Virus record (IMG/VR): IMGVR_UViG_3300045049_000080
Span: 1-56,889 of that record
Source of the DNA: a virus
Strand: one strand, 5' to 3'
DNA length: 56,889 nucleotides
Part shown: positions 33,440-49,759 of the stretch, in pieces
Position numbering within the stretch: the stretch's first letter is position 1
Layout of the letters: each line of letters opens with the position of its first letter
Notes under the pieces: generated by a model
Databases searched by the model: none
The model's input: the letters and a program-made list of their open reading frames with translations, nothing else
What the model was told of the DNA's origin: nothing
Position numbers and translations under genes: made by a program

Positions 33440-34528
33440 TCATTTTTTGTTCACTTGGCGCACACTGACACGGATATGTTCGACACCCCGAGGGTCCGCG
33501 TACAGGTCGCTCATGCGTTGCGTGGCGTGCCCCAAAAGCGCCTTGGTGTCCACATTGCCCTGAGCGTCATACAAGCGCTTGGTGAGGCTGCGGATTTCAT
33601 GGAACGTGGGGGCACCTTCGTCGGGGATCTTGGCGAGCTTGCGGGCCTCAGTGAAGGCGTGGCTGATGCGATCCGGGTGGACCTTGCTGCCGGCCGGCGC
33701 GTTGCCCCATGGGTTGACGTGATGCACAAGGAACTTGGACAGCACGCCCGTGCGTGCCTTCACCAGGTCAGACAATGAGACGCCGACCGCATCCATGCGC
33801 AGGGCAAGCGGAATATCCACGGGCTTGTTCGTCTTCCGCGTCTTGGTGCGCCAGACCGTCAGCCATTCGCCGCTGATGTGGACGCGCTCCATGCCGGCCA
33901 CCGTGCTGCGGTCCTGGCCCGTGACCAGCGCGAGCATCATTGCCAATGGCAGCCATTCCGCCACTTCCGGGGCCTTCGTATGGATCGCCTGGAACTGCTC
34001 CAGAGTCAGGCGCCCCCGCTTAACCATGGGCTTCGGGTCGGCCGTCACCTCGGCAGGGTTTGAGTTCATCCAGCCCAATTGCATCCCGCGCTTGCACACT
34101 GCAATGAGCCGGGAGCGGATTGCCTGCGCCCATCGGTTCTTGCCGGCCTTGGCGATTGGCTCGACGACGCCCGCGCAATCGGCGACGGTCAGCGTCCCAC
34201 ATTGCTTCTCGCCCAACGCTTCCCGGATTACCTTGTCCTGACTGCGCCAAGACTTCTCGGTGTTCTTCGTCGCGGCGGCTGGCATTTCGGCCAGTAGATC
34301 AGCGACCGTATGGACGGCGCCGGAAAGTCGCGCAACTAGAGAAGGGCGGGCGCCCAGCACATGAGCATTCGCCGCGATGGCTTCGTTGCGCGCGATGGCG
34401 AGCGAAACGCGCCCGATGACGAGCGTCTGTCCTGTGGTCGGGTGGCGCCACGTGTAGTAGCCCGGGCGCGGCTCGTAGAGGCCACGGGGCCAATCCCGCT
34501 TTCGGTGTGACCGGCGAGCTGCGCTCAT
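33440..34528 (-). CDS. int: Tyrosine recombinase integrase (lambda Int-like)
   Basis: The 362-residue protein has an N-terminal arm-site domain like that of lambda Int (RGLYEPRPGYYTWRHPTTGQ), a core-binding domain and the catalytic set: Arg207 in TGQDRS, Lys in the WRTKTRKTNKPVD hairpin, His310/Arg313 in FHEIRSL, His334 in LLGHA, and Tyr343 in MSDLYADPRG. Length and layout fit the family. It would join the phage to and remove it from the host chromosome. Its start overlaps the excisionase stop by four bases. Confidence 0.92.
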   Translation of the reverse strand: MSAARRSHRKRDWPRGLYEPRPGYYTWRHPTTGQTLVIGRVSLAIARNEAIAANAHVLGARPSLVARLSGAVHTVADLLAEMPAAATKNTEKSWRSQDKVIREALGEKQCGTLTVADCAGVVEPIAKAGKNRWAQAIRSRLIAVCKRGMQLGWMNSNPAEVTADPKPMVKRGRLTLEQFQAIHTKAPEVAEWLPLAMMLALVTGQDRSTVAGMERVHISGEWLTVWRTKTRKTNKPVDIPLALRMDAVGVSLSDLVKARTGVLSKFLVHHVNPWGNAPAGSKVHPDRISHAFTEARKLAKIPDEGAPTFHEIRSLTKRLYDAQGNVDTKALLGHATQRMSDLYADPRGVEHIRVSVRQVNKK

Positions 34529-41876: not shown

Positions 41877-42179
41877 TCAGAAGGGCGGCGAGTCTTCGAA
41901 ACCGTCGTCGTCGCGCGTGCCGTAGGCGCGACCTGCCTGCTGCTGCCGTCCGCCGCCGAGCTTCATCTCGGCGTGCGTGCGTTGCGGCTGCTCGTCCTTC
42001 GGCTTCGGTTCGTTCAGGTAGGCCCAGCCGTCCCAGCCGACCGGCACAGCCTCCAGCTTCAGCATCGGCCCGTTCTTGGTCTGGATAACCGCGCCGATGG
42101 TCATGTACCGGCTCTTCTCGTTACCGTCGCGGTCGGTGTACTTGCCGGTGACGGCTGTGACTTCGTATTGCTTGCTCAC
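41877..42179 (-). CDS. SSB-tailed ssDNA-associated protein candidate
   Basis: The 100-residue product has an N-terminal beta-rich domain (QYEVTAVTGKYTDRDGNEKS, MLKLEAVPVGWDGWAYLNEP) and a disordered tail ending DDDGFEDSPPF. The acidic tail with terminal Pro-Phe mimics the SSB tip (DDDIPF) that recruits recombination enzymes. It is directly next to the exonuclease. A single-stranded-DNA role is inferred. Confidence 0.6.
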   Translation of the reverse strand: MSKQYEVTAVTGKYTDRDGNEKSRYMTIGAVIQTKNGPMLKLEAVPVGWDGWAYLNEPKPKDEQPQRTHAEMKLGGGRQQQAGRAYGTRDDDGFEDSPPF

Positions 42180-42817
42180 GCAGCTTTCCTTTCAGCGATG
42201 CCGCGCAGGGCGGCCAGTTTGGATTCCAGTTCGGCCAAGAACGTCTGCACCGCGTCTTCCAGCTCGCGCAGGTAAGCCATCGAAGGCTCATAGCGAACGC
42301 GGAACAGTTGCAGATCCTTCGGCATGCGCGGATCGAAGCTGACGAACTCGACCCACTTCCGTTCGGTGCAGGCGCACTGCCAGGCCATTTGCGGCAGGTA
42401 GGCTGACGGCGGTTCGCCGCGCATCAGGTACTCGATATGCGTGTGCGTCTTCGGGCACTTGATTTCCAACAGCCCGTCGTCGCCGATCAGCCCATCAGGG
42501 GAAGCGCCGGCCAACTCGATACGCGGGTGGAGCACGAAGCCGACTTCTTCGACCAGAAGGCCCGCATCCACCTCTAGCGCCAAGCGGGCGGCCGGCTCGG
42601 TTTCGGTGCCGTGCTTCATCGCGTCATTGGTGAACGACTCACCCACCATGCCGGTCAGGCGCTCGGCGATCAGTTCGCCCATGTAGGTCGCCCGGGTAGC
42701 ACTCGGCTCGCCACCGCGGCCCTTAGCGATCACGCAAGCGACCTTCGAGGCGGTAACACGGCCGGCACGGGCCGCATGCCATTCCGGAGTTCCCTGGGCG
42801 CATTGAATGACCTTCAT
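42176..42817 (-). CDS. YqaJ/lambda-type exonuclease
   Basis: The 213-residue protein has the lambda exonuclease pattern: GTPEWHAARAGRVTASKV, NDAMKHGTETEPAARLALE with Glu74, GASPDGLIGDDGLLEIKCP with Asp108, Glu118 and Lys120, and YLPQMAWQCACTERKW. It resects 5' ends to give single strands for annealing. It overlaps the ERF gene by four bases; the pair forms a two-component recombinase. Confidence 0.88.
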   Translation of the reverse strand: MKVIQCAQGTPEWHAARAGRVTASKVACVIAKGRGGEPSATRATYMGELIAERLTGMVGESFTNDAMKHGTETEPAARLALEVDAGLLVEEVGFVLHPRIELAGASPDGLIGDDGLLEIKCPKTHTHIEYLMRGEPPSAYLPQMAWQCACTERKWVEFVSFDPRMPKDLQLFRVRYEPSMAYLRELEDAVQTFLAELESKLAALRGIAERKAA

Positions 42818-43407
42818 TGCGTCACCTCTTGGCGCTTGTCGGCGTCGGCGGCAATAGCCTTCAGCTCGGAGTGATGGGGACCGAGGGCGCGGCGCTGGTC
42901 GGCGCTAAGGCCGTTCCAGTACGCCTGATACGCCTTCGTGCCCTTCTCGGCGTGGGACAGGGCCTCATCGTTCGGGCCGCCCTGGTCTTCGCCTTCCTCG
43001 GGGTCCATCGCCATCGTGGGTACGACGAACTGTTGGAATAGGGCGGTACGGAAGGCCACGGACTGCGCCTTGACAACCGCCTTATCGCCCGAATCCATCG
43101 CCTCGCCGAACACCTCGCACGAGACGTTGGAGCCGTCGTCGGCCGCGAACGTGAACGTCCCCTTCAGCACGACGAACCGCGTAGCCTTGCCTTCTCCCTT
43201 GGCGCGCTCGGTGACGGTCAGATCGGAATAGGACGGCGTAACCGTGATGCCGTGGTGAATCAGCACCACGCACATTTCGTTCATGGCCGCCTCGATGCCG
43301 CGATAGTTGACCTTCGCGCCACCCAAGTCTGCCCGGGACAGCTTGGCGATGCCCTTCGCGGAAATCTCTTTCATGGCGCCAACAAGCGCCGCGTGAATGT
43401 TGCTCAT
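42814..43407 (-). CDS. erf: ERF-family single-strand annealing protein
   Basis: The 197-residue protein has the ERF signature: YRGIEAAMNEMCVVLIHHGI, FTFAADDGSNVSCEVFGEAM, DSGDKAVVKAQSVAFRTALF and an acidic linker. The start is an ATG behind GGGAGTAGCG; four codons upstream is less likely. It anneals complementary strands during phage recombination and genome circularisation. Partner of the adjacent exonuclease. Confidence 0.88.
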   Translation of the reverse strand: MSNIHAALVGAMKEISAKGIAKLSRADLGGAKVNYRGIEAAMNEMCVVLIHHGITVTPSYSDLTVTERAKGEGKATRFVVLKGTFTFAADDGSNVSCEVFGEAMDSGDKAVVKAQSVAFRTALFQQFVVPTMAMDPEEGEDQGGPNDEALSHAEKGTKAYQAYWNGLSADQRRALGPHHSELKAIAADADKRQEVTQ

Positions 43408-43409
43408 CG

Positions 43410-43631
43410 CTACTCCCAACTCTCGTCACCGACAAACCAAGCCTTCACCCTCTGCCACAAAGAGCGCTTGGGCTGTACCGGCTGAAAGCAGTGGTACGGG
43501 TGGCGGCAGGCTTGATCGCTCTGGGCGCAGTCTCCGCAGCAGCCGGAGAAGACGCGCTCATGACGCTTCGTTGCCAGCTCTCGGTCCTCGGCGTCCTCGA
43601 TGACGGAGTGCATGTGGTGCAGAGCGTCCAT
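43410..43631 (-). CDS. Small Cys-rich early protein
   Basis: The 73-residue product contains HERVFSGCCGDCAQSDQACR and then HCFQP, a possible zinc site, and a basic C-terminus. The ATG is the fifth codon of the frame. Function unknown. Confidence 0.5.
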   Translation of the reverse strand: MDALHHMHSVIEDAEDRELATKRHERVFSGCCGDCAQSDQACRHPYHCFQPVQPKRSLWQRVKAWFVGDESWE

Positions 43632-45731: not shown

Positions 45732-45775
45732 AGTGTAGGCGCGACTAAACTTGAAAGTCAAGCGACAGCTAAACA
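45732..45775 (-). promoter_or_regulatory. pL-like promoter with two operators
   Basis: Read on the minus strand, TTGACT (45756-45761) and TACACT (45732-45737) are 18 bases apart, a good sigma70 promoter firing leftward. Two operator-like palindromes overlap it: AGTGTAG-N6-CTAAACT at 45732-45751 and AGTCAAG-N6-CTAAACA at 45756-45775, centres 24 bases apart. The same arrangement occurs at pR. Confidence 0.65.
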
Positions 45776-45785
45776 AATAAGCGCG

Positions 45786-45805
45786 TCTAGGTGAAAACAC
45801 CTAGA
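45786..45805. repeat. Perfect 8-bp inverted repeat between pL and lipoprotein gene
   Basis: TCTAGGTG and CACCTAGA surround AAAA. No T-tract follows, so it is more likely a protein site or mRNA leader hairpin for the rightward lipoprotein gene than a terminator. Confidence 0.5.
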
Positions 45806-45856
45806 TCGCTAACCGGCATGCGGGCGGCTACAGTGACTTACAGGAGGAATGATCAA

Positions 45857-46111
45857 ATGAAAACAATCGTCGCCGCGGCTTTGGCTGGCGTCTCTTTGTC
45901 AGGGTGTTTTTTCTTCTACATACCTGGCGGAGCTATTGACGCTCTGACGGGCAACAGCGGCAATGGCTGTGTCGCTGAGGGGGCGAGCGTTGGCGACCTG
46001 GTGAAGAAGGCGAACGGGAACGTCTACAAGGTTTCGTCGCTCTCCGGGCACTCCTACAAGTGCACAGACCCATCACTCCCCGTGCTTGCGACTTTGATCG
46101 AAAAGCCTTGA
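45857..46111 (+). CDS. Lipoprotein in immunity region (probable conversion or exclusion factor)
   Basis: The 84-residue protein has a signal peptide and lipobox LSGC (Cys17) followed by FFFYIPGGAIDA and a small Cys-containing domain (NGCVAEG, SYKC). The start is fixed by CAGGAGGAATGATCAA, one of the strongest ribosome binding sites in the window. Its place beside pL and opposite to the left operon suits a gene expressed in the lysogen. Small phage lipoproteins often block superinfection; that is inferred. Confidence 0.7.
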   Translation: MKTIVAAALAGVSLSGCFFFYIPGGAIDALTGNSGNGCVAEGASVGDLVKKANGNVYKVSSLSGHSYKCTDPSLPVLATLIEKP

Positions 46112-46292
46112 GGTATTCGGCCTGGCGCTCGCTGAAGGCCTTCGCGCTCCTCGCTCAATTTGCACGCCATCGCTGCACAAACGCACAAGTCTGGCTCACG
46201 CCCTGAGCCATAACACAACTACATTGAGTTACAGGCGAGGGCGGCATGCTGGATGCCCCCAGGTAAAACCAACAAGAGCGGGGTACAGAGCT

Positions 46293-46715
46293 ATGCCGTG
46301 GGCGAAGGATTCGTTGCGCATCCGCACGAGGATGCTGGATCAGAAGGTGCTTGGGGCGACGGTGACGGGCTACCTGACCCTCGCCTCCTCAGCCGAGATG
46401 CGAAAACGCATCGTCGAACGTATGGATGAGACCGGCGCCCTGGCCGTCGTCCTCGACATGCGCGGCACCGTCCACGTGATGGACAATGAAGACTGGCAGA
46501 GGATCATAGACACGCGCGACCTAGCGTTTCCTATGCCTGTCCCGGTCGCGATGATCGTGTCAGAGGCCGAAGAGGAAAAGGTCCGCGCGATGGCGGCAGC
46601 TATGAGCGGCTTCGGGCACTTGCGTGGGGTTTTTCGGGAGCTTCCGCCCGCCGTGGACTGGGCTCGGCGGTGGGCTGGGAACTGGGTGGACTTGCCGAAG
46701 GCCGGCCTCTCTTGA
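46293..46715 (+). CDS. Immunity-region protein of unknown function
   Basis: The 140-residue product has VTGYLTLASSAEMRKRIVER and ALAVVLDMRGTVHVMDNEDW, an alpha/beta pattern that recalls STAS/SpoIIAA domains. Its last 116 bases are antisense to the repressor gene tail. Possibly expressed in the lysogen with the lipoprotein. The STAS comparison is weak. Confidence 0.5.
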   Translation: MPWAKDSLRIRTRMLDQKVLGATVTGYLTLASSAEMRKRIVERMDETGALAVVLDMRGTVHVMDNEDWQRIIDTRDLAFPMPVPVAMIVSEAEEEKVRAMAAAMSGFGHLRGVFRELPPAVDWARRWAGNWVDLPKAGLS

Positions 46716-47088
46716 GCAAGAGGTAGCTTAGGTACTCGTCAAGTTCTGACGTCAGTTCAAGGCGGAGGGCTGGCGGACGGATGTCACTCAGGCGTCGCGC
46801 CAAGATCGCTGCCTGCTTTGTTATCCCTTCCGGCGTTGTGACTTCTTCGGACTGATCTTTCAAAAAGTAGTCGTCTGGAAGGTTGAACCGGCGCGCCATT
46901 GCGACCGCCGAATCCTCACCAAAGGCTACAACGCCCTTGAGAACTTGGCTCAAGTAGCTTTTGTCTAGAGGCCTCTCCGAGTGCCTGACATTGGCGGCAT
47001 AGGTCACCGCTCGCGTCTGCCAGCCGCGCTCTTCCCCAAACTTTTCTTTCAGCCACGCTTTGAAGCGCTGGCGCCGCTGCTCGTCCAT
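46600..47088 (-). CDS. CI-like repressor without peptidase domain
   Basis: The 162-residue protein has an HTH (LDKSYLSQVLKGVVAFGEDS, VAMARRFNLPDDYFLKD) of the XRE/CI type. The C-terminus (about 100-162) is helical and then Pro/Ser/Arg-rich; no S24/LexA-type Ser-Lys peptidase is present, so RecA-driven self-cleavage should be impossible. The ATG lies inside the weakest of three upstream operators. It is divergent from the Cro-like gene, the usual repressor/Cro arrangement. Confidence 0.75.
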   Translation of the reverse strand: MDEQRRQRFKAWLKEKFGEERGWQTRAVTYAANVRHSERPLDKSYLSQVLKGVVAFGEDSAVAMARRFNLPDDYFLKDQSEEVTTPEGITKQAAILARRLSDIRPPALRLELTSELDEYLSYLLLKRGRPSASPPSSQPTAEPSPRRAEAPEKPHASARSRS

Positions 47089-47154
47089 TAAGTCAATCCT
47101 AAACACAATAAATTTAGGACCGGCTTGACTTGGAAGTGTAGGCAAGCCTAAACT
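47086..47154 (+). promoter_or_regulatory. pR-like promoter with three operators
   Basis: TTGACT (47125-47130) and TAAACT (47149-47154) with an 18-base spacer form a rightward promoter. Operator-like palindromes are AGTGTAG-N6-CTAAACT (47135-47154), AATTTAG-N6-CTTGACT (47111-47130) and a weaker CATTAAG-N6-CTAAACA (47086-47105). The first is identical in its arms and spacing to the site at pL. Spacing is 24-25 bases. Confidence 0.65.
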
Positions 47155-47161
47155 ATGGCCC

Positions 47162-47455
47162 ATGAAGTTCTCCGCATGGGTCGAAGAAGAAGAGGGGCGC
47201 GGCGCGATGCTCGCTGCGCACTTCGATGTGACGCCTTCAGCCATTTCCCAATGGAAGAAGAACGGCGTCCCGAAGGACAACATGTTGGAGGTGCGTCGGC
47301 TTTCTGACGGCCGCGTCTCTCTGGAAGAGATGCTTGCCAAGGAAGACGAACCAAGTGTTCCCGCCTTCGACCCAATCGAAGACCACCGCAAGGTTGACGT
47401 TGGCGTGATCGACACCGGCATGGGTGTAGAGCCCGGCCGCAGGGCGGGGGAGTAG
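47162..47455 (+). CDS. Cro-like regulator (leaderless)
   Basis: The 97-residue protein contains a Cro/YdaS HTH: AAHFDVTPSAISQWKKNGVP followed by MLEVRRLSDGRVSLEEML. It is divergent from the repressor. The ATG is only seven bases after the -10 box, so the mRNA would begin at or next to the start codon, and no ribosome binding site fits. It would compete for the operators and favour lytic growth. Confidence 0.75.
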   Translation: MKFSAWVEEEEGRGAMLAAHFDVTPSAISQWKKNGVPKDNMLEVRRLSDGRVSLEEMLAKEDEPSVPAFDPIEDHRKVDVGVIDTGMGVEPGRRAGE

Positions 47456-47458
47456 CGC

Positions 47459-47707
47459 ATGCAAGCCACTTGGCACGCGCCCATCGCTCAAGCTGCCACG
47501 GTTGATCTGCCACGCGGGCAACAAGCGGTGCTTGATTTCATCTGCGAGTTCAAGCGCAACAAGGGCTATCCGCCGACGCGCGCCGAAATCGCCATTGGTC
47601 TCAAGTTCAAGTCCGCCAACGCCGCCGAAGAGCACCTGCAAGCGCTGGCCCGCAAGGGGGTCATCCGGCTTGAGCGAGGCATCTCGCGCGGAATCGTCGT
47701 GCTGTAG
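47459..47707 (+). CDS. Free-standing LexA-type DNA-binding domain
   Basis: The 82-residue protein equals the N-terminal domain of Lex[62 protein letters not shown]. coli LexA has the same [22 protein letters not shown] and SRGI blocks, and this protein stops right at the LexA hinge, without the Ser/Lys peptidase. The recognition-helix residues (SANAAEEH) are kept. It may bind SOS boxes of host or phage without being cleavable. It lies next to Cro in the first early transcript. Confidence 0.8.
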
Positions 47708-48824: not shown

Positions 48825-48983
48825 CCATGTTCTCCAGTGCTGCGCCGGTAAGCGCCATGCCCGTTCATCTCCTCCTGGCCGCGGGGTCTCCCTCCTCCGC
48901 GGTTCACACGCTGGCCCACCTTTCCGGCGCTGCACACCAAAGCCCCGATGGCTTGGACTCCACAAGGGCCGTGCAGCGCCACC

Positions 48984-49103
48984 TTATTTCCCAAGCAGTT
49001 CAGACGCGACTCGCTGCATCAGCGCAGCCTCAAACGCGATTGAACGGCCGATGCGTTCGAGCATCAGCTTCAACTGGCGTTTCGCCCATTGGTGATTCGT
49101 CAT
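48984..49103 (-). CDS. Possible 39-residue minus-strand peptide
   Basis: The minus-strand frame MTNHQWAKRQLKLMLERIGR and SIAFEAALMQRVASELLGK reads as a plausible amphipathic helical protein with natural amino acid usage. The ribosome binding site is weak (GGGGTGCTGAA). No gene on the plus strand uses this stretch. Confidence 0.35.
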   Translation of the reverse strand: MTNHQWAKRQLKLMLERIGRSIAFEAALMQRVASELLGK

Positions 49104-49164
49104 TTCAGCACCCCATCAATAGCGCACGTCGCGCCGGCCGCTTTGCTGGCAACCGCCGTTCCAG

Positions 49165-49263
49165 TGCTTTTGTTGATGCGTACCCCCGTGAGGCCCGCCC
49201 TGTGGCGGCCGATACCCGCAGCAGTACCGCGGGCGGATCGGGCGGTGCGCATCAACAAAAGCA
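49165..49263. repeat. Long inverted repeat around a GC-rich loop
   Basis: Arms of 20 bases (49165-49184 and 49244-49263) match at 19 of 20 positions; the loop is 59 bases and itself GC-rich with palindromic parts. The region 48825-49300 otherwise lacks a convincing plus-strand gene. Both arms read RINKS in outward frames. Function unknown: divergent regulation, structured RNA or recombination site are possible. Confidence 0.65.
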
Positions 49264-49300
49264 TTTCCAAGTTCATCAACAACCCGAGGTGTATCGGACC

Positions 49301-49759
49301 ATGGGCTCTATCGTGAAGGAACTGGCGGCGCAACGCCAGGCGGGGGACCGTCAACCGCACTCAACCGACGACAACCGAACTCAACCTGTGCAGCGCGATT
49401 GCGTTGGACCGGGACAGATGAGGGAGCCGGCGTTCATCGACTGGCGGATGGTTTCCCAGTGCGAGGACGAGCTGGCGGCGATCAACCTTTGCATCGATCT
49501 GTCGAAGCAAAAGGACGAGTCGCTTGCCAAAGACCTCGGCATCGACAAGGGTCACTTCAGCCGCATCCGCAAGGGGATGGCGAATTTCCCTGACCGCAAG
49601 CGTCTGGCGCTTCAGCGGCTGTGCGGGAACTGGGTGCCGCTTCAGTACGAAATCTTGAACGGGCCACCGCTGCGTCGTTTGCTTGACGAGTTGGACGGCG
49701 GGGGCTCTCCGTTCCATCCGGCCGCCTCGCGCGGTCTTCCCCGCGAACTGCGGGCCTAA
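49301..49759 (+). CDS. HTH regulator (CII/regulatory type)
   Basis: The 152-residue product starts MGSIVKELAAQRQAGDRQPH behind CGAGGTGTATCGGACC; the long upstream frame across the inverted repeat is rejected for lack of a binding site and odd composition. Residues about 60-125 hold an HTH: DESLAKDLGIDKGHFSRIRK, GMANFPDRKRLALQRLCGNW. This pattern is that of a small family of phage regulators. It is placed like lambda cII, before replication genes; CII function is inferred. Confidence 0.65.
   Translation: MGSIVKELAAQRQAGDRQPHSTDDNRTQPVQRDCVGPGQMREPAFIDWRMVSQCEDELAAINLCIDLSKQKDESLAKDLGIDKGHFSRIRKGMANFPDRKRLALQRLCGNWVPLQYEILNGPPLRRLLDELDGGGSPFHPAASRGLPRELRA

Follow-up and report, generated by a model that had tools for sequence, protein, structure and literature searches.

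A predicted lambda-like lysis–lysogeny switch of the PaaR2/YdaS sub-type in the virus record IMGVR_UViG_3300045049_000080

The immunity region and its neighbours

The DNA analysed here (the window) comprises all 56,889 bases of an IMG/VR virus record, without attached host or chromosome. Its relevant features are listed in Table 1. At their centre is a leftward gene for a short repressor and a divergent gene for a Cro protein, with two strong copies of an operator-like sequence lying 1.4 kb apart and three weaker copies placed 24–25 bp inward from them. Rightward of the promoter pR follow cro, a gene for a LexA-domain protein, a methylase gene and a DnaB/primase-like (replication) gene, and the gene at 48827–49759 gave a weak regulator match only. 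A lambda-type integrase is also encoded, indicating that the phage is temperate. Among portal proteins, those of Caulobacter phages come closest to that of this phage (49% identity), which hints at an alphaproteobacterial host, and no DNA-level relatives of the 45–49 kb region were found in phage records.

Table 1. Coordinates of the switch region and of the associated genes discussed in the text.
Feature	Position	Strand	Description and evidence
Lambda-type tyrosine integrase	33440–34528	-	PHROG integrase, E=5.6e-35; ~32% identity to HK022 Int
YqaJ/lambda-Exo-type nuclease	42176–42817	-	pL operon; Pfam YqaJ, E=6.8e-25
ERF single-strand annealing protein	42814–43419	-	pL operon; Pfam ERF, E=1.5e-7
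OL1, strong operator (predicted)	45732–45751		AGTGTAGGCGCGACTAAACT; covers pL -10 box; exact pattern match, matrix rank 2
Promoter pL	45732–45761 (45761 to 45732)	-	TTGACT-18-TACACT; leftward into exonuclease/ERF operon; consensus scan
OL2, weaker operator (predicted)	45756–45775		AGTCAAGCGACAGCTAAACA; one arm is the pL -35 box; leave-one-out rank 7
Prophage repressor CI	46600–47088	-	162 aa; PaaR2-like HTH, short helical C-terminal part
OR3, half-degenerate operator (predicted)	47086–47105		strong arm TGTTTAG; leave-one-out rank 6
OR2, operator (predicted)	47111–47130		AATTTAGGACCGGCTTGACT; one arm is the pR -35 box; leave-one-out rank 5
Promoter pR	47125–47154	+	TTGACT-18-TAAACT; consensus scan
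OR1, strong operator (predicted)	47135–47154		AGTGTAGGCAAGCCTAAACT; covers pR -10 box; exact pattern match, matrix rank 1
Cro/YdaS-type lytic repressor	47162–47455	+	97 aa; Pfam, profile, Foldseek
LexA DNA-binding domain protein	47459–47707	+	without peptidase part; Pfam LexA_DNA_bind, E=1.1e-20

Among solved structures, the repressor is nearest to PaaR2, the CI of prophage CP-933P (7nkv, 8c3k and 8c3l, the last two labelled by Foldseek as the PaaR2 N-terminal domain), with E-values of 2.6e-4 for the single sequence (phmmer) and 1.2e-14 for a profile; the N-terminus MQKKE of the matched protein is that reported for PaaR2 (PMC8630535). When the two proteins are aligned (DKSYLSQVLKGVVAFGEDSA in the repressor, EKSYLSQLMSGRASFGEKAA in PaaR2), the recognition-helix residues KSYLSQ are found in both and at the same place. 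The AlphaFold model of the repressor, which is good in the HTH part only (pLDDT about 80), shows a four-helix HTH with KSYLSQ on the third helix (residues 43–51), and its Foldseek matches are weak (best E=0.04). The repressor has no Pfam match, and no S24 peptidase or autocleavage domain was found in it. Since it is short and such a domain was not found, SOS cleavage in the manner of lambda is unlikely and induction would have to differ. PaaR2 is likewise short (15 kDa including a His tag; PMC8630535). Searches by tblastn returned no relatives of the repressor from viral contigs, phages or genome contigs; those described below were reached solely via the operator sequence and the PDB, and the CI proteins of phage Evi and the Klebsiella phage share a modest 28–29% identity with it over the alignment.

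The Cro protein matches the Pfam family YdaS_toxin (PF15943; E=3.4e-7) just above the cut-off (30.4 bits against 30) and P22_Cro (2.1e-5) below the cut-off. Profile matches were obtained to Xfaso 1 Cro (3bd1, E=1.3e-10) and to YdaS (8co2, E=2.5e-5), and 8co2, the Cro of CP-933P, is also the best fold found by Foldseek (TM 0.67). A search of plasmids found no relatives, and extending the search through an alignment added no further loci. Directly after cro in the pR operon, where CII or YdaT would be expected, is the LexA-domain gene; YdaT, a CII analogue and a companion gene in CP-933P and Rac that is not counted here as essential to the switch, was not found next to cro.

Predicted operator sites and promoters

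The first-pass annotation had described a 20-bp pattern, AGTGTAG-N6-CTAAACT, with identical arms and spacing at pL and pR and three weaker variants 24–25 bases apart. Both copies, OL1 and OR1, are exact and a pattern scan of the 56.9-kb record found the sequence nowhere else, while the three weaker 20-mers are present as OL2, OR2 and OR3. Centre-to-centre distances are 24 bp for OL1–OL2, 24 bp for OR1–OR2 and 25 bp for OR2–OR3. The strong sites have dyad symmetry at 8 of 10 positions. Their arms are identical on the plus strand and hence mirrored relative to the oppositely facing promoters, the common feature being a near-palindrome. In a less strict form, GTNTAG-N6-CTANAC occurs at pL and pR, with variants at the -35 boxes and at the start of the CI gene.

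When up to three mismatches to the full pattern were allowed, the whole record contained eight matches, with 1.04 expected, a count reached by none of 100 shuffles. A symmetrised matrix built from OL1 and OR1 gave these two sites scores of 30.3 and 30.5, with a maximum of 14.6 over 40 shuffled sequences of 57 kb, and matrix scanning showed the motif to be absent from the rest of the record, so that it is not a sequence common elsewhere in the phage. Each site was also scored with a matrix made from the other four, and among the ~57,000 positions ranked, OL1 and OR1 each came second, OR2 fifth, OR3 sixth and OL2 seventh. With a matrix made from all five, the sites occupy ranks 1–5 and are followed by a gap (18.6 versus 14.8 for the sixth). 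On the matrix of OL1 and OR1 only, the weak sites are singly marginal (1.5, 1.85 and 20 places expected per genome), so the case for them rests on their position and on related loci. OL2, and OR2 in part, take one arm from a -35 box, so that their operator scores are partly a promoter effect.

The consensus scan gave pL and pR as divergent, sigma-70-like promoters, each with 9 of 12 consensus positions matched, that have an identical -35, an identical spacer length and a nearly identical -10. Read along the direction of transcription, the elements form the composite TTTAG-N6-CTTGACT-N4-AGTKTAG-N6-CTAMACT. Of the right-hand arms, that of the promoter-proximal operator (CTAAACT or CTACACT) supplies the -10 hexamer and that of its neighbour (CTTGACT) the -35 hexamer, and because the outer arms are promoter hexamers, the operators are repeated with the same 24-bp period as the -35 and -10 boxes. 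It had been proposed that all of the sites overlap promoter elements. This applies to OL1 and OR1, which lie over -10 boxes, and to OL2 and OR2, which lie over -35 boxes, but not to OR3, which touches neither box. Lying outside pR, OR3 overlaps the repressor gene at its ATG start codon and its ribosome-binding region, and perhaps also pRM; a position could not be assigned to pRM by eye, as its -35 was weak in every register tried.

The cro start codon at 47162 is 7 nt downstream of the -10 box of pR, and is the single ATG of 1532 in the record to have such a promoter 5–8 nt upstream. Six related Cro genes (L005, L006, L007, L008, L010 and L013) have a gap of 6–7 nt between the -10 box and the ATG. 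Given the short gap, its recurrence in these relatives and the lack of any other such ATG in the record, the cro mRNA is probably leaderless, with transcription from pR predicted to start at or beside the ATG. The cro mRNA of PY54 has been found to be leaderless by 5' RACE (PMC4488713). Five of the six loci (L005–L008 and L010) encode close relatives of Cro with a PSAISQWK helix and have the same layout, in which a CTTGACT -35 is fused to an operator. The operator arms upstream of their cro genes differ (TTAGTG...CACTAA, TTAAG...CTTAA) and resemble operators of the P22 type.

Relatives linking operator and repressor

Recognition helix and operator were joined without circularity by searches in two opposite directions, from DNA to protein and from protein to DNA. 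In the former, the promoter–operator pattern was used to search viral contigs, and it led to immunity regions that carry operators at pL as well as at pR and have CI helices reading KSYISQ (L011), RAQISQ (L013) and KAYISQ (L014). A stricter composite of two operators was found in 2 of 84,980 genomes, both Ralstonia, adjoining a prophage CI gene with RSQVAQ; about 0.5 chance matches would be expected in 257 Gb, chance figures for such collection scans being rough. The first pattern left O2 out of account, and L011, L013, L016, L017 and L018 all have this site with its TAG exactly in register; in the pL of the first four the arm that is not part of the promoter (TGTTTAG, AATTTAG) is also kept at the exact place. 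Matches in L012, L019 and L024, which lie upstream of a large structural-type gene or in an AT-rich contig, were judged to be chance or unexplained. L012 and L019 are related contigs in which the pattern (L012:8613–8642 and L019:8040–8069) is ~37 nt upstream of the large structural-type (portal-like) gene; no repressor gene was noticed near it, and it could be either a chance match or a late-gene operator.

In the opposite direction, the N-terminus of PaaR2 was used as a tblastn query and gave matches in Escherichia phage Evi (100%) and in Klebsiella phage 5 LV-2017 (66%), Evi standing in for the O157 genome since its PaaR2 N-terminus is identical. Each of the two has two GTTTAG-N6-CTAAAC sites with at most one mismatch within 5.2 kb, where 0.00 and 0.03 would be expected by chance. 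The pL of Evi has an O2 site at a spacing of 22 bp, again fused to the -35 box (GGTTTAGTTTTTGCTTGACT), and a further site lies next to the CI start, at the place that corresponds to OR3.

The known system most like this locus is that of CP-933P of E. coli O157:H7 (structures 7nkv, 8c3k, 8c3l and 8co2), where PaaR2 and YdaS footprint on 18-bp palindromes with the half-site GTTTAG over PR, PRM and PL (PMC8630535). Both have a short, homologous CI with a KSYLSQ helix, a divergent YdaS-type Cro, 18-bp palindromes of the GTTTAG type (here GTNTAGGCN-NGCCTANAC), and a PL whose -35 and -10 match those of PR. The repressor gene is the leaderless one in CP-933P; in this phage it would probably be cro. 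They differ in the inner half-site bases (GGC here, TAA in CP-933P) and in the gene after cro (LexA-domain here, YdaT there), and the toxin–antitoxin genes paaA2-parE2 were not seen in this phage.

The RacR–YdaS–YdaT system of the Rac prophage shares the YdaS-type Cro and, with TTAGGC-N3-GCCTAA over the -35 and -10 of pR, a common TAGGC/GCCTA core. RacR of E. coli K-12 shifts DNA carrying three TTAGGC/GCCTAA repeats into three complexes (PMC5700373). Unlike this phage, Rac has an odd spacing (N3), a different repressor (RacR) and a Shine–Dalgarno leader before ydaS, and K-12 Rac contains no GTTTAG site at up to one mismatch, its sites being TTAGGC-N3-GCCTAA. With P22 immC (c2/cro) and lambda (cI/cro) the locus shares its overall plan: the repressor and cro genes diverge from an intervening OR set, an OL set is at pL, the operators are spaced so as to cover promoter boxes, and the early operons run from pL into recombination genes and from pR into replication genes; with P22 it also shares the P22_Cro match. 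It departs from both in operator sequence, in a repressor without a found S24 or autocleavage domain, and in having two visible OL sites rather than three. The immB region of PY54 is similar in being a lambda-like switch, and its leaderless cro mRNA would be a further likeness if that of this phage is leaderless as predicted, whereas OR3 is the sole operator bound by Cro in PY54 (PMC4488713).

Interpretation and alternatives

The five sites are best read as OL and OR of a lambda-like lysis–lysogeny switch that belongs to the PaaR2/YdaS sub-type, that of CP-933P; their half-site consensus is AGTNTAGGC, and a probability of about 0.87 is given to this reading as a whole. The first-pass annotation had named them repressor/Cro operators of lambda type. 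The first part of that proposal is now supported by five independent lines of evidence, including the overlap with promoter hexamers, the PaaR2/YdaS homology, the two-way searches and the rarity of the motif; the second is correct as to layout, with the CP-933P, Rac and P22-like switches as nearer relatives. Very probably the switch follows a variation on the classic lambda scheme that E. coli prophages are already known to use, and its sequences point to an immunity specificity that is new within an established group of lambdoid switches (PaaR2/YdaS, Rac and P22-like). It provides a concrete, predicted immunity system for a phage without close relatives in the phage collection.

The assignment of proteins to sites, and the order in which they bind, is predicted from sequence. 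In the lysogen, CI dimers would mask the -10 and -35 boxes of pR by binding OR1 and OR2, and likewise those of pL by binding OL1 and OL2; both early operons (exonuclease/ERF to the left; cro, the LexA-like gene and replication to the right) would then be silent. Because the operator arms are themselves promoter hexamers, RNA polymerase and repressor should be unable to occupy the DNA together and would be mutually exclusive at pL and pR. During lytic growth, Cro would be made first from pR and would then bind OR3; Cro, or CI in excess, placed there on the start of the repressor gene, would shut off CI. PaaR2 octamerises (PMC8630535), so that bridging of OL and OR is possible, and by analogy looping over 1.4 kb may occur in this phage.

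One alternative accepts only OL1 and OR1 as true operators and takes OL2, OR2 and OR3 to be promoter or start-region sequences that resemble the motif by overlap. This would fit the lack of individual significance of the weak sites on the OL1/OR1 matrix, and the fact that one arm each of OL2 and OR2 is a -35 box. It is nevertheless improbable, given that the non-promoter arm of O2 is kept in the pL of Evi as well as of L011, L013, L016 and L017, that the weak sites rank fifth to seventh in the leave-one-out scoring, and that Evi too has a site beside its CI start. Another alternative dispenses with protein sites altogether and sees conservation of two strong TTGACT-18-TANACT promoters alone. 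The matching -35, spacer length and -10 of pL and pR are what it would predict, but a promoter places no constraint on the sequence of its spacer, which is where the AGTGTAG/AGTTTAG arm is found, and neither the 8/10 symmetry nor the recurrence of the same arms beside homologous repressors agrees with it, making it barely credible.

The gene immediately after cro raises a different question, namely whether the sites are read mainly by its LexA-domain product or by host LexA, which would place the early promoters under SOS control. The position of this gene favours such a role, yet the same class of operator accompanies a PaaR2-type CI in L011, L013, L014, Evi and Klebsiella phage 5, and the footprints on CP-933P were made by PaaR2 and YdaS (PMC8630535), so control by LexA is considered highly improbable.

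Compatible with the PaaR2/YdaS-type switch, and put forward tentatively as a rather doubtful extension of it, is a single code, with a CI helix K[SA]Y[IL]SQ paired with AGTTTAG-N6-CTAAACT and arms that are the -10 and -35 boxes, common to phages of distant hosts and with leaderless cro as a recurrent feature. If true, it would span E. coli, Klebsiella, Ralstonia and the present phage, and unrelated phages could give mutual immunity. Apart from this extension, the results tie an operator sequence that recurs in phages of several bacterial groups to the recognition helix of the repressor, and so allow repressor targets and cross-immunity to be predicted from sequence.

Two rightward genes lie inside the immunity region. 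The first (45857–46111) specifies a small lipoprotein-like product with the signal LAGVSLSGC, and the second (46293–46715) a weakly STAS-like protein, its 3' end overlapping the end of the repressor gene by ~115 bp. Lipoprotein-like genes are also found between CI and pL in L011 and L013, and genes at this position may serve in superinfection exclusion. Between OL2 and the small lipoprotein gene is an 8-bp inverted repeat with a 4-nt loop (45786–45805; TCTAGGTGAAAACACCTAGA), of which the CTAGGTG sequence is present as a single copy in the record. At the corresponding place upstream of pL, hairpins resembling intrinsic terminators occur in L011, L013, L014, L016 and L017.
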